DNA from: Oenococcus oeni DSM 20252 = AWRIB129 | Lineage (GTDB): Bacteria; Bacillota; Bacilli; Lactobacillales; Lactobacillaceae | DNA length: 64,000 nucleotides | Direction of reading: 5' to 3' | NCBI RefSeq assembly: GCF_000372485.1 | Contig: NZ_AQVA01000001.1 | Location: 248,001 to 312,000, forward strand | In this document: positions 30,936-36,282 of the stretch, piece after piece | Numbering within the stretch: the first letter of the stretch is position 1 | How the letters are laid out: each line of letters starts with the position of its first letter | The notes under the pieces: generated by a model | The model's input: the letters and a program-made list of their open reading frames with translations, nothing else | Databases searched by the model: none | What the model was told of the DNA's origin: nothing | Position numbers and translations under genes: made by a program

Positions 30936-30960
30936 TAAACTTGAAAAAGTTAATTCAGTT

Positions 30961-30966
30961 TATAAT
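30961..30966 (+). promoter_or_regulatory. -10 box for the guanylate kinase-like gene
   Basis: TATAAT ends 11 nt before the ATG at 30978 with no ribosome-binding site. The predicted leader is about 4-5 nt. Confidence 0.5.
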
Positions 30967-30977
30967 ATTTAATCAAT

Positions 30978-31562
30978 ATGGAAAACGAAAATCGCGTAAT
31001 CGTAATCACTGGGGCTTCCGGAGCTGGTAAGACATCAGTTGCTCGTTATCTTCGTGCTAAATACAGTGTTCCGCGGGTGATCACTCATACAACCCGCGAG
31101 CCAAGAGAAGGTGAAATCGACGGTGTCGACTATTACTTTGAAACCGAAGATTCATGGGGCAAGAATCACTTTATTGAACAGGTTAATTATTCTGGTTACA
31201 AGTATGGTTCCTCTTATGAAGGACTCGAACGGGCCTGGGCCAAGTCGAAACGATCGAATCATCCGGGTGTTATAAGCCTGGTTGTTGATACGATTGGGGC
31301 AATCACATACAAGGAAACCTTAAAAGACCAAGCGATTATCTGGTTTGTAACAGTTAGTGATGTCGCTGGTTTGAGAAATCGTTTGATTGCGCGTGGAGAT
31401 AATCCAAAACGTGTCGTCGAACGAACTAGTTCCAACGACTTCGAGCGCGATATGCATCTTCCTGAAAAACTTAAAAATCGAGCAACAGTCATTATTAACG
31501 ATAATTGGCAATTGACTCAAGAAGGGGCCGATAAATTTATTAATAAACTATTTTACATGTAG
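30978..31562 (+). CDS. guanylate kinase-like protein
   Basis: A 194-aa P-loop kinase of the guanylate kinase family. The nucleotide loop ITGASGAGKTSVAR is at residues 10-23 and TTREPREGEIDGVDYYF is the GMP-binding block. Sequence after about residue 100 departs from housekeeping Gmk, notably the short lid and the C-terminus NRATVIINDNWQLTQEGADKF. It may therefore be a second guanylate kinase-like paralogue and not the essential enzyme. It stands alone between a terminator and its own short-leader promoter. Confidence 0.75.
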   Translation: MENENRVIVITGASGAGKTSVARYLRAKYSVPRVITHTTREPREGEIDGVDYYFETEDSWGKNHFIEQVNYSGYKYGSSYEGLERAWAKSKRSNHPGVISLVVDTIGAITYKETLKDQAIIWFVTVSDVAGLRNRLIARGDNPKRVVERTSSNDFERDMHLPEKLKNRATVIINDNWQLTQEGADKFINKLFYM

Positions 31563-31650
31563 TTTTTAAAGAGCTTGAAACAAGGCTTGTTTTTGCTTTT
31601 TGAAATAAATAGTTAACTTTAATTTTATTTTTAGAGATAATAATATAAGC

Positions 31651-32556
31651 ATGAAAAATAAAGACCACATTTTCAAGTATTTTTTAATTGGGCTGTTGAG
31701 TGCCATCATCGGAGCGACGGTTGTTTTGGGTTGTTTTTATCTGTTTTATTTGGCACCGGCACAAAATAAAGCGGCGAAGAGCTCGTCAATTGCAGCCGGC
31801 ATGACGAAAGTTGTCAATCTGACCGGGACTTCAAGCTCTCAAGCCACCAAAGCTTACAACAAAGTTAAGAATGCGGTTGTAACGGTAGAGAATTATCAGA
31901 AACCGTCTACCGAGGCCAGCGACTATTTTTTTGAATGGTTCGGCAGCCAGTCCGGTGGTAGCAGCAGTAGCAGCAGTTCTTCGACAGAGGATCAATTGGC
32001 GGCCGAAGGGACCGGATTGATTTACGAAACAGACGGGAACTATTCTTATATTGTTACGAATAATCACGTGATTAAAGGGGCTAACGAAATTGAAATAATT
32101 ATGGCCAATGGTACTAAGGTCAAAGCAAAATTAATTGGGAAAAATGCGACTAAAGATATTGCTGTTTTAAGGATCAGTTCGGCAAGCGTCACGACAACGG
32201 GAACTTTTGTTAATTCCAGCAAAGTTCAGGCTGGTCAGCAGGTACTGGCAATCGGTTCTCCTTTGGGATCGGATTATGCCAGCTCATTAACTTCCGGAAT
32301 TGTTTCGGCAACCAATCGGCAAATCGATGACAGCCCAATCAAATTGTCGGCTATTCAAACCGATGTTGCACTAAATCCCGGTAATTCGGGTGGCCCTTTG
32401 ATTAACATGGCTGGTGAAGTTATCGGCATAAATTCGATGAAAATCAGTTCGACTGAGGACGGCAGCGAGGACGTCGAAGGAATGAGTTTTTCAATTCCTT
32501 CCAATACAGTGGTTGCAACGATTAAATCAATCATTAGTTCGGCTTCCGGGAATTAA
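31651..32556 (+). CDS. htrA: HtrA-type serine protease lacking a PDZ domain
   Basis: A 301-aa membrane-anchored trypsin-like protease for surface protein quality control. One N-terminal transmembrane helix (about residues 10-32), a Ser/Gly-rich linker (GGSSSSSSSS) and the protease domain with His139 (TNNHVI), Asp169 (KDIAVL) and Ser246 (GNSGGP) are visible. The protein ends soon after MSFSIPSNTVV, where family members continue into a PDZ domain of about 100 residues. The sequence after the stop shows no PDZ remnant. The -10-like sequences sit 4-9 nt before the ATG, suggesting a very short leader. Confidence 0.85.
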   Translation: MKNKDHIFKYFLIGLLSAIIGATVVLGCFYLFYLAPAQNKAAKSSSIAAGMTKVVNLTGTSSSQATKAYNKVKNAVVTVENYQKPSTEASDYFFEWFGSQSGGSSSSSSSSTEDQLAAEGTGLIYETDGNYSYIVTNNHVIKGANEIEIIMANGTKVKAKLIGKNATKDIAVLRISSASVTTTGTFVNSSKVQAGQQVLAIGSPLGSDYASSLTSGIVSATNRQIDDSPIKLSAIQTDVALNPGNSGGPLINMAGEVIGINSMKISSTEDGSEDVEGMSFSIPSNTVVATIKSIISSASGN

Positions 32557-32860
32557 GGGAAGTTTTTAAGAAATATATAAGATGGTTTAAACAGAAAAGT
32601 GCTTTTCAAATCAAATTCTTTTTTACAAAATTTCAATTAACGGAATAAAAAAAATCATTTAAAGCTTCGGTGAAGGCTGCTATAAAGGCTGTTATACCGG
32701 GCTTTTAATTTATTTATGTAATCTTTTTGTAACAATGTAAAATAACCTTAAAAAAGTATTAATTATGCTGTCAAGAAAGCCCCCTATTGTAGAAACCGTG
32801 CTTTAGAAATCCTTATAGATTTTTAAAAAATCGGATACTTTGCACGTTGGAGAATTATTA
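32557..32860 (+). other. 304-bp intergenic region before the LysM gene
   Basis: AT-rich, with no ORF. It contains a tandem pair of 12-bp units (AAGGCTGCTATA at 32673-32684 and AAGGCTGTTATA at 32685-32696) and a TAAAAT box near 32740. A leader of about 100 nt with a GGAG ribosome-binding site runs up to the LysM-CHAP gene. The repeat function is unknown. Confidence 0.5.
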
Positions 32861-33973
32861 ATGACTACAAAAACTGTTAAAAATGCGCTTCTTATTTCTA
32901 CCGGTGCCGCTGCCGCTCTTGCGGTAGGTGCCGTTTCTGCAAATGCTGATACTGTTACCGTTAAGCAGGGTGACAGTGTCTGGGCCTTAGCTAAAGAGTA
33001 CGATACGAGTGTTAGTGCGATCGCTAAGGCAAATAAATTATCAAATCCCGCTTTGATTTTAAGTGGTTCCAGCTTGAACATTCCTTCAAGTTCGTCTGCT
33101 GCTACAACTACTAGTGAGACAGCTTCTTCGGCTTCTACAACAGCTGCTACGAGTATTTCTGCTGAGAATGCTGATGGAACTGTTACGATTGCTTCCGGCG
33201 ATACCCTTTACGGAATTGCCGAACGCTATGGTGTTTCTGTTTCAACTTTGATTGCCAATAACGATGGATCTACTTTTATCGTTGCTGGTCAGAAACTTTC
33301 TTTGAAAGCCACTACGACAACTAGTGCCGCTACAACCACAAGCAGTGCTGCAGCAACGACTGCTAGTCCTGCTGTCGCAACGACTACCTCATCGGCTGCT
33401 GTATCTTCAGCTGCTTCTTCTGTAGCTTCTAGCCAAGCACCTGTAGCGAGTTCTGCTACGAGTTCCGTAGCTACTAGCGCGCCAGCTTCGACTGCTTCTT
33501 CTGTAGCTTCAAGTTCTTATACTTCTCAAGCTTCAAGCAGTGCTACTTCATATTCGACTCGTCGCACATATCCAACTACATCGACATCTTCGAGTTCAAG
33601 TACCACTAGCAATAGCGGAGTTTCTTCCAATTATGCAACAACCTCTTCCAGTACTAACACATATACTTATGGCCAATGCACTTGGTATGTTAAGAATATG
33701 CTTTCATGGGTTCCAAATGGCCTAGGGAATGCTTATCAGTGGGCTTCTGCAGCTGCAGCCGAAGGTTATACTGTCAATAACACTCCAACTGTTGGTTCAG
33801 TTGTTGTTTTCCAAGCTGGTCAGGCATATGCCGGTAGCCTGGGTCACGTTGCTGTTGTTACTGCTGTTTATGGCGACGGATCTATCCGTATTTCTGAAGG
33901 GAACTACGCCGGTCTTGCAACAAACACTCGAACTGTTACATCTGCTTCAAGTTATCAATATATCCACGCGTAA
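32861..33973 (+). CDS. secreted LysM-CHAP cell-wall hydrolase
   Basis: About 370 aa, from the ATG at 32861 (GGAG upstream). An in-frame TTG at 32840 was rejected because it would put the ribosome-binding site inside the gene. A signal peptide ends near VSANADT. Two LysM peptidoglycan-binding modules follow (VTVKQGDSVWALAKEYDTS and TIASGDTLYGIAERYGVS), then a linker of about 120 residues made almost only of Ser, Thr and Ala. The CHAP amidase/endopeptidase domain contains the catalytic Cys in YGQCTWYV and the His in LGHVAVV. It resembles secreted autolysins of lactic acid bacteria. Confidence 0.9.
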   Translation: MTTKTVKNALLISTGAAAALAVGAVSANADTVTVKQGDSVWALAKEYDTSVSAIAKANKLSNPALILSGSSLNIPSSSSAATTTSETASSASTTAATSISAENADGTVTIASGDTLYGIAERYGVSVSTLIANNDGSTFIVAGQKLSLKATTTTSAATTTSSAAATTASPAVATTTSSAAVSSAASSVASSQAPVASSATSSVATSAPASTASSVASSSYTSQASSSATSYSTRRTYPTTSTSSSSSTTSNSGVSSNYATTSSSTNTYTYGQCTWYVKNMLSWVPNGLGNAYQWASAAAAEGYTVNNTPTVGSVVVFQAGQAYAGSLGHVAVVTAVYGDGSIRISEGNYAGLATNTRTVTSASSYQYIHA

Positions 33974-34001: not shown

Positions 34002-34022
34002 AAGACTCCGGTCTTTTTTTTT
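34002..34022 (+). terminator. terminator after the LysM-CHAP gene
   Basis: AAGAC-TCCG-GTCTT hairpin followed by a run of T. The stem is short but the T tract is long. Confidence 0.75.
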
Positions 34023-34038
34023 ACGGTAAATTAGAGAT

Positions 34039-35286
34039 ATGCAATTTCGTAATTATTTTACAAATGAAAATAAATGGCTGTTTTCTCCAAATACTTCTAT
34101 TGGCGAGGTTAGTCAGTTTTTTCCAGACATGAGAACATTTCAGTTTCAGGGCCGTTTTATTTCCGATGAATTGATTGATACGATCAGAGCACGCGAAAAA
34201 CATTTTTCAACCGTTGAATCAGCTTTGGATGAGCTGACAAAACTGCTTTCAAAAAAAATGTTGGATGAAAAAAAATGGCGTCATAGTCGGGACCAGTATG
34301 CTGACAACAAGGCGCTTTTTGCTCTGAATATTGGTATTATTCCTTTTGAGAATGAGGACGGCAGTCGAGGTAGGAATTTAAGTTATACTTTCCAGATTTT
34401 TCGTAATCAGTCAATCATTGATTTGGTTAAACACGGTAAATGGCTTGATGATCAAGTGAGCGGTTTTGAGGAGATTAATTATTACTTTTCTCGAACCGAC
34501 GACCTTCTTAATTTTCGTAATCTACAAACCGGTTTAGCTGGAAAGCCGTCCGATGTTTTTAAATTGGCTCAACCTTATATCGATGAGTTAAATAATCAGG
34601 AATTGATTATCAGAAAAATAGAGGCAGAAAAATCACCGAGTTTTTTGGCGGTTAGCTTGACGACTGACTTTGACAATTGGGAAAAGTCTGGCGCCGCTCA
34701 ACTGGATAAAGTAAATGGATTTGATGTGCAGTCAAAAATTAGTGGTTTGTTTAATCACGTTTCCAATCAGACGCTGGCAACCCTTAAACACAAGGCCGAT
34801 ATCTTTAAAAATCTTCAACAGATCAAAAAAGACGATGCAAGATCCAGTTCTGATCAGTATCATTCTGTTCGTAAAGCACAAATAAAATTACCTAATAAAT
34901 ATATGACCAATCAACCAATCTCGGTCAAACGTACTATTTCTAATGCTTTATCTTTGATTGGAAAACCCTTTGTTTGGGGTGGCGATGATGAAAGAGGATT
35001 TGATATACCGGGATTTATCGAGTATTTACGGGCAATTTCCGGTCTGACAGCAATTGGTGATAAAGTTTATATTCAGGCTGCCAAATTGCGACAGGCCGGC
35101 AAATTAAAGGCGCGTATTTCACAAGCTTTGCCGGGAGACCTACTTTTTTGGGGCCAAAGAGGGGCTGAATTCCAGGTCGCCATGTATATTGGCGGTGGTC
35201 AATACATCGGTTTAAAGGGACCTGACAGTAAAGTTGCGATTCAGCCAATTTCTGGTTCCCCGGTTGCTTACGAGGCTATTTTTTAA
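34039..35286 (+). CDS. NlpC/P60-fold protein with lost catalytic residues
   Basis: A 415-aa protein. The last 120 residues match NlpC/P60: SLIGKPFVWGGDDERGF, then the place of FDCSGF reads FDIPGF (residues 321-326, Ile323 for the catalytic Cys), and the strand that normally begins with His reads FQVAMYIGGGQYI (Gln379). PGDLLFWG is conserved. The fold is therefore kept while the nucleophile and base are gone. The N-terminal 290 residues are unfamiliar. No signal peptide is visible, so it is probably cytoplasmic. It lies 3 bases before the dus gene. Confidence 0.65.
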   Translation: MQFRNYFTNENKWLFSPNTSIGEVSQFFPDMRTFQFQGRFISDELIDTIRAREKHFSTVESALDELTKLLSKKMLDEKKWRHSRDQYADNKALFALNIGIIPFENEDGSRGRNLSYTFQIFRNQSIIDLVKHGKWLDDQVSGFEEINYYFSRTDDLLNFRNLQTGLAGKPSDVFKLAQPYIDELNNQELIIRKIEAEKSPSFLAVSLTTDFDNWEKSGAAQLDKVNGFDVQSKISGLFNHVSNQTLATLKHKADIFKNLQQIKKDDARSSSDQYHSVRKAQIKLPNKYMTNQPISVKRTISNALSLIGKPFVWGGDDERGFDIPGFIEYLRAISGLTAIGDKVYIQAAKLRQAGKLKARISQALPGDLLFWGQRGAEFQVAMYIGGGQYIGLKGPDSKVAIQPISGSPVAYEAIF

Positions 35287-35289
35287 TCT

Positions 35290-36282
35290 ATGATAAGTGA
35301 ATTTTGGAAGTCAATTAAAGATGCGTCACAAAAAAAGGGAGAACCTTTTTTTAGTCTTGCACCAATGGAAGCCGTGACCGACAGTGTATTTCGGCGGGTT
35401 GTTTTTAAAGCAGCTCCTCCAGATCTTTTTTATACTGAATTTACAAATGCCATCAGTGTCACACATCCTAAAGCCAAGTTCTCGGTTATGGGCCGTTTAT
35501 ATGTTAAAAAGGACGAACAGAGGCCGATTGTTCAACTTTGGGGCAATCATGCGAGTGACTTTGCCAAAGCTGCTTTGTCGGTTAAAAACCAAGGTTTTAA
35601 GGCAATTGACATTAATATGGGTTGTCCAGATTCAACCGTAGTTAAAAATGGGGGAGGTTCCGATTTAATTCGTCACCGAAGTGCTGCTGCCGAAGTTATT
35701 CAAGCTTCCAAAGAAGCGGGACTGCCGATTTCGGCAAAAACCCGGCTTGGCTTCTCAAAAATCGATGAGATGTATGATTGGCTTCCTTGGCTTTTAAAAC
35801 AGGATCTTCAAGTATTGACAGTTCATTTGCGCACACGAAAAGAGATGAGTAAAGTTCCGGCTCACTTCGAATTGATTGATGAAATAATTAAAATGCGGGA
35901 TCAGATTGCTCCGGAAACTTTATTGCAAATCAATGGCGATATTAAAAATCGCAGTGAAGGAATTGAATTGGCAAAGAAACATCCGGGTATTGATGGAATC
36001 ATGATCGGCCGCGGCGTTTTTGAAAATCCTTACTGCTTTGAAACGAAAGCGGCAACTCATTCACTGAATGATTGTCTGGATCTCTTTGAAATGCAGTTGG
36101 ATCTTTACGATCAGTATGTTCAGGAAGTTGGCCTAAAACGTTTTGAGACTTTGAGACGTTTCTTCAAAATTTATATCCGTGGTATTCGAGATGCTGCCAA
36201 GTATCGTGATCTTTTAATTAATACCCATTCAACCGATGAGGCACGAAAGATTATCAATGAATTAAGAACGCTAAACAACTGA
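35290..36282 (+). CDS. tRNA-dihydrouridine synthase (DusB-like)
   Basis: A 330-aa flavin enzyme that reduces uridines in the tRNA D-loop. Family blocks are SLAPMEAVTDSVFRR at the N-terminus, TEFTNA, IDINMGCPDSTVVKNGGGS with the catalytic Cys (about residue 115), ISAKTRLGF and GIMIGRGVFENPY. Exact uridine specificity cannot be read. The gene is only 3 bases from the preceding one and has no clear ribosome-binding site of its own, implying coupling. A bidirectional terminator follows. Confidence 0.9.
   Translation: MISEFWKSIKDASQKKGEPFFSLAPMEAVTDSVFRRVVFKAAPPDLFYTEFTNAISVTHPKAKFSVMGRLYVKKDEQRPIVQLWGNHASDFAKAALSVKNQGFKAIDINMGCPDSTVVKNGGGSDLIRHRSAAAEVIQASKEAGLPISAKTRLGFSKIDEMYDWLPWLLKQDLQVLTVHLRTRKEMSKVPAHFELIDEIIKMRDQIAPETLLQINGDIKNRSEGIELAKKHPGIDGIMIGRGVFENPYCFETKAATHSLNDCLDLFEMQLDLYDQYVQEVGLKRFETLRRFFKIYIRGIRDAAKYRDLLINTHSTDEARKIINELRTLNN

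Follow-up and report, generated by a model that had tools for sequence, protein, structure and literature searches.

The one non-catalytic NlpC/P60 protein described in the literature that we surveyed is RipD (Rv1566c) of Mycobacterium tuberculosis, in which the catalytic residues are replaced by Ala83, Ser132 and Glu144, and for which the cited review reports peptidoglycan binding and a C-terminal pentapeptide repeat (PMC12067865). Two enzymes are also close enough for comparison: SagA of Enterococcus faecium, which is secreted and active and has the triad Cys443, His494 and His506 (PMC6483599), and YkfC, an enzyme of wall-peptide breakdown with SH3b domains and Asp at 256, in which the S1 site contacts gamma-D-Glu through Tyr226, Trp228, Asp237, Ser239 and Ser257, and Arg255 belongs to a hydrogen-bond network (PMC2954226). 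Here we analyse a protein of 415 residues encoded at 34039-35286 on the plus strand (as are all features below) of a 64,000-nucleotide stretch, the window, from the 1.74 Mb genome of Oenococcus oeni DSM 20252, and find an NlpC/P60 domain in which, as in RipD, the catalytic Cys and His have been replaced. NlpC/P60 pseudoenzymes are already known through RipD, and the Oenococcus protein differs from RipD in its apparent location, its domain make-up and the extent of its loss. From sequence comparisons we favour, with a probability of about 0.5, the reading that this pseudoenzyme would act in the cytosol as a non-catalytic adaptor or regulator.

The frame starts with an ATG at 34039 and runs without internal stops to a stop codon ending at 35286, exactly where a first-pass annotation of this DNA had placed it; the minus strand over the same interval, read in a single frame, has many stops. 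Pfam PF00877 (NLPC_P60) matches residues 308-409 (34960-35265) with 48.3 bits (E 1.1e-12) against a gathering score of 23, which makes the domain a member of that family, and the closest solved domain by sequence is that of SagA (6b8c, E 1.4e-16). The annotation had noticed that FDCSGF has become FDIPGF (Ile323) and that the strand His is Gln379, which is right, yet understates the loss. Ile323-Pro324 (35005-35010) replace the catalytic Cys and the Ser that follows it (by motif, YkfC Cys238 and Ser239), Gln379 (35173-35175; Ser in the O. kitaharae sequence) replaces the catalytic His, Phe311 (34969-34971) stands in place of a Tyr (by motif, YkfC Tyr226), and Asp341-Lys342-Val343 (35059-35067) replace the Arg-Thr-Thr that the five closest active relatives have there. 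Every one of the 32 other aligned NlpC/P60 domains has Cys and Ser at 323-324, His at 379 and Tyr at 311. The catalytic Cys and His of C40 cysteine peptidases are missing from each of the five Oenococcus orthologues, which carry Ile323 and Gln or Ser379, and the FDCSG motif and the His are kept in 11 of the 11 remaining NlpC/P60 matches in seven Oenococcus genomes, some of them the same genes as among the 32 aligned domains. Each of the five near-complete genomes has one extra NlpC/P60 match with Cys and His, and the two partial genomes have two and four matches, every one with Cys and His.

The loss extends beyond the catalytic pair. SagA is secreted and active, whereas its triad residues Cys443, His494 and His506 align with Ile323, Gln379 and Gly391 of the Oenococcus protein; the third position is also a residue other than His in the five active sister domains described below, and therefore Gly391 carries no weight. 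Among 36 distinct domains (a subset of the NlpC/P60 matches, with duplicates dropped and G005 standing for G004), 52 columns are invariant in the five sisters, and 15 of these are altered in every pseudoenzyme, including Tyr311, Cys323, Ser324, Arg341-Thr342-Thr343 and His379. The GDLLFWG strand and the glycines of the core are unchanged, and the pseudoenzymes have invariant residues of their own: Phe311, Ile323, Pro324, Lys342-Val343 and Leu392-Lys393-Gly394.

We matched YkfC positions by sequence motifs (YxW, DCS and a segment lying 17-18 residues beyond), without superposition. By this matching, Tyr226, Trp228, Asp237 and Ser239 correspond to Phe311, Trp313, Asp322 and Pro324, and Arg255 and Ser257 to Asp or Gly341 and Val343, so that two of the five S1 residues contacting gamma-D-Glu are kept (Trp and Asp) and the rest have become Phe, Pro and Val. 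Because the S1-matching residues other than Trp and Asp are lost, simple retention of stem-peptide binding is disfavoured. This bears on the idea of a cytosolic sensor of recycled wall peptides, in which the dead domain would bind stem peptides or muropeptides uncut and signal via the N-terminal region: the replacement of the Tyr226, Ser239, Arg255 and Ser257 counterparts and the lack of any SH3b or LysM match in the protein speak against such a sensor, which we consider unlikely. YkfC itself works in the cytosol. The Oenococcus protein resembles it in having a C-terminal NlpC/P60 domain, but has no SH3b match and has Lys342 at the Asp256 site, which sets it outside the YkfC subfamily. A binding or regulatory role for the pseudoenzyme domain is plausible, as the annotation had proposed, with peptidoglycan binding made less likely by the lost YkfC-matching residues.

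The gene is present in all five of the seven searched Oenococcus genomes that are at least 98% complete, with no match in the two partial genomes, G001 and G003 (65 and 68% complete). The other orthologues are 93, 80, 70 and 70% identical to the window protein; G004 and G005 are identical in sequence, so that the five orthologues represent four distinct sequences. Ile-Pro at 323-324 is found in all five, site 379 holds Ser in G004 and G005 and Gln in the other three, and none of the five proteins contains a cysteine. In the closest pair, the window genome and G006, the ratio of non-synonymous to synonymous change (dN/dS, Nei-Gojobori) is 0.028 for the gene and 0.027 for each of its two main parts, and 0.058, 0.024, 0.043 and 0.044 for the neighbouring dus, guk, SBP and htrA genes. 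The pseudoenzyme gene is maintained under strong purifying selection. Although catalytic-residue loss would also be expected of a decaying pseudogene, or could be a sequencing artefact, we regard both as very improbable given the open frame and common substitutions in all five orthologues, the dN/dS of the closest pair and a conserved upstream element; recent decay in particular is rejected by the shared substitutions and the low dN/dS. The annotation's suggestion of a pseudoenzyme is supported by a loss common to five near-complete genomes, by purifying selection and by the lack of cysteine, and the homologue alignment that it had proposed as a check finds the loss conserved, with intact Cys and His only in paralogous domains and never in orthologues.

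The nearest domains are those of NlpC/P60 hydrolases of the partial genomes G001 and G003 (L035-L039; BLASTP identity 36-48%). In a tree of the 36 distinct domains, a branch with support 100/98 separates the pseudoenzymes and these five domains from the rest, and an insert, YxQAAxLRxxG, is common to pseudoenzymes and sisters and absent from eight other aligned relatives. In contrast to the pseudoenzymes, all five sisters have the catalytic Cys and His, a single cysteine apiece and a hydrophobic N-terminus, and Pfam LysM was found in three of the four that were scanned (L035, L036 and L037, not L039; L038 lay outside the scan). The sister domains look like parts of secreted hydrolases. No branch of the tree is longer than the stem leading to the pseudoenzymes, with 1.39 changes per column; the branches that follow it measure 0.0023 to 0.3. 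We read the history of the domain as one of relocation and fast change, followed by freezing.

The pseudoenzyme itself is predicted to be cytosolic. Export or membrane segments were judged by 19-residue Kyte-Doolittle hydropathy alone, and by this measure the highest mean within residues 1-60 is 0.06 for the window protein, as expected from the annotation's claim that a signal peptide is absent, and 0.06 to 0.49 across the five orthologues, none of which has a signal-like or membrane segment at its N-terminus; six relatives reach 1.53 to 1.74. RipD carries an export signal, of which hydropathy gives no sign in the Oenococcus protein; the latter also differs from RipD in its orphan 285-residue N-terminal region and in its Ile, Pro and Gln/Ser substitutions. 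A RipD-like non-catalytic wall binder reaching the envelope by an unrecognised route has a precedent in RipD, where an NlpC/P60 domain has turned binder, and could be thought of here since the RipD model of NCBIfam (NF033743) is the top NCBIfam match and a LysM-CHAP wall hydrolase is encoded just upstream. Nevertheless, that match scores 39.8 bits against a cut-off of 215, which leaves the protein outside the RipD family, and with no signal-like segment in any of the five orthologues, no LysM match and several S1-matching residues lost, a wall binder seems improbable.

Residues 1-285 (34039-34893) belong to no known family and are established only in Oenococcus. The first-pass annotation had described about 290 N-terminal residues of unknown type and had considered that the domain might be the end of a new family, which our searches support as far as they went: no Pfam, PHROG or PADLOC family and no established relative beyond Oenococcus was found. 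The best Pfam match, ENTH, lies below the cut-off (E 0.086, 13.3 of 24 bits), no PHROG was found at E 1 and no PADLOC model at E 0.1, and the best match among PDB sequences has E 0.019. Within Oenococcus the region is well conserved, with 183 of 286 alignment columns invariant (five rows, four distinct). This conservation of an unassigned fold, together with the new invariant Lys393 in the NlpC/P60 domain, would suit some other type of enzymatic activity, located either in the N-terminal region or in the remodelled pocket; against it, a thiol nucleophile is absent, there being no Cys in any orthologue, and a comparison of the N-terminal region with Pfam, PHROG and PDB sequences gave no enzyme family, and we rate such an activity slightly below even the peptide sensor.

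More distant relatives of this region were sought in sets of family, order and phylum genomes, which may overlap. Among 397 family genomes, 14 gave matches at E 0.1, five of them the Oenococcus orthologues and nine others with E 0.0096 to 0.096; at five of these nine loci (those other than L061, L062, L064 and L065) the longest frames were read, and by eye they look unrelated. Among 395 order genomes (E 0.01), the one match besides the window's own (E 0.004) lies in a frame resembling a histidine kinase. Among 398 phylum genomes (E 0.01), the window's own match was joined by three others from a single family (E 1.3e-4, 9.0e-4 and 0.003), small lipoprotein-like proteins of 156-186 residues (L091-L093) with 72-75% mutual identity and no Pfam family above cut-off. 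They align around residues 138-225, each outscoring 1000 of 1000 of its own shuffles, and a profile-profile comparison gave a probability of 69.8, with E 4.1e-5, across 71 columns that span residues 149-220; both controls are uncorrected for the selection of these proteins as the best of 398 genomes, and the likeness covers about a quarter of the region. L091-L093 and the N-terminal region, at about its residues 178-192, have in common a stretch resembling PDPHVDEVNNQSIII. Kinship with these lipoprotein-like proteins may exist, and the resemblance could also be due to chance. Of 64 pattern stretches on GTDB contigs, a search that may omit records close to that of the window, one was confirmed, that of O. 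kitaharae CRBO2176; of 256 on viral contigs none was confirmed, and plasmids and phages yielded no N-terminal relative.

The order htrA, LysM-CHAP, pseudoenzyme, dus is identical in all five genomes that carry the gene. Downstream, after 3 bases, lies a dihydrouridine synthase (Dus) gene (35290-36282), and because the gap between the pseudoenzyme stop and the dus ATG is 1 or 3 bases in all five genomes, the two genes are likely to share a single transcript. In G001 an NAD(P)-binding protein precedes dus instead, and in G003 the contig starts 213 bases before the dus match. It is gene order that suggests a link with Dus; nucleic-acid binding, which this neighbour might suggest, is not favoured by isoelectric points spanning 9.0 to 5.9 across the orthologues. 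The upstream neighbour is a LysM-LysM-CHAP wall hydrolase (32840-33973). Its listed TTG start may be too early, and its matches in G002, G004 and G005 hold one TAG, perhaps just 5' of the true ATG.

Between this neighbour and the pseudoenzyme lies a conserved element (34002-34041) composed of a small hairpin (34002-34015, recognised by eye and not reported by the consensus scan), a T9 run (34014-34022) and 16 bases to the ATG, almost invariant in five genomes despite near-saturated synonymous sites. The 30 bases 5' of the ATG are identical, ungapped, at 30, 28 and 29 positions in G006, G002 and O. kitaharae. In both distant pairs this identity ranks first among eight genes, the next best being 25 and 26 (each of the two comparisons, with G002 and with O. 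kitaharae, omits three of 11 genes because their alignment did not begin at residue 1); full identity to G006 is also found for four other genes. A 17-base core occurs exactly once in each of the five genomes, and with up to two mismatches its hits do not exceed those of a reversed-pattern control. No clear ribosome site was seen 5' of the ATG, and the consensus scan reported neither a promoter nor a terminator. The hairpin and T9 run may serve to terminate the LysM-CHAP transcript, and TAAATT might be a -10 element from which transcription would begin close to the ATG. The 34002-34041 element may combine a terminator with a promoter and give a near-leaderless transcript. By eye, guk and the HtrA-like gene (30950-30980 and 31620-31653) also have an AT-rich, -10-like sequence near the ATG without a clear ribosome site, and starts of this near-leaderless type may be widespread in the genome.

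For the adaptor or regulator that we favour, the following origin can be proposed. An NlpC/P60 domain from a secreted wall hydrolase would have joined, in an ancestor of the group of O. kitaharae and the window species, an unrelated 285-residue N-terminal region that had no export signal. The domain would then have changed fast, losing the Cys, the His and several substrate-binding residues, before coming under strong purifying selection. The NlpC/P60 fold with its new invariant residues would bind either a partner protein or some new ligand, the N-terminal region would carry a genus-specific function, and the pseudoenzyme and Dus would probably be made from a single transcript. A more specific version, which we hold more tentatively, is that of a genus-specific intracellular regulator derived from a captured exported hydrolase domain, a papain-like fold in the cytosol that would have lost its catalytic residues and the majority of those binding substrate, gained a new invariant pocket and been fused to a region established nowhere else, and that would control a cell process, possibly tRNA modification via the neighbouring Dus, or wall synthesis from inside.

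Several observations weigh against the adaptor or regulator. The sequences show the loss of catalytic residues, the absence of cysteine, the conservation, the gene order, the grouping of the domain with secreted-looking hydrolases and an N-terminus that is not hydrophobic, whereas its role, its cytosolic location and its co-transcription with dus are what we infer; non-classical export may also occur. Trp313 and Asp322, counterparts of two YkfC S1 residues, are retained. Placement of the sisters within their clade is weakly supported (92/65), and with G001 and G003 just 65 and 68% complete, it is only next to dus in G001 that absence of the gene from the partial genomes is firm. The dN/dS of 0.028 comes from a pair with a synonymous divergence of 1.29, near saturation, and many of the remaining pairs are saturated at synonymous sites. 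AlphaFold2 runs with two sequences each, for the window protein and L066, gave a mean predicted local distance difference test (pLDDT) of 33.7 and 38.3, so low that the N-terminal fold and the pocket are not visible, and it is the profile matches that point to an NlpC/P60 fold.

The titles and opening lines of abstracts on Oenococcus and NlpC/P60, a literature in which subscription papers lay mostly outside our survey, do not describe this protein. Active sister domains within the genus open the step from hydrolase to pseudoenzyme to study. Oenococcus is the bacterium of malolactic fermentation in wine, and a conserved, genus-specific protein of this kind is a candidate for a part in Oenococcus physiology.
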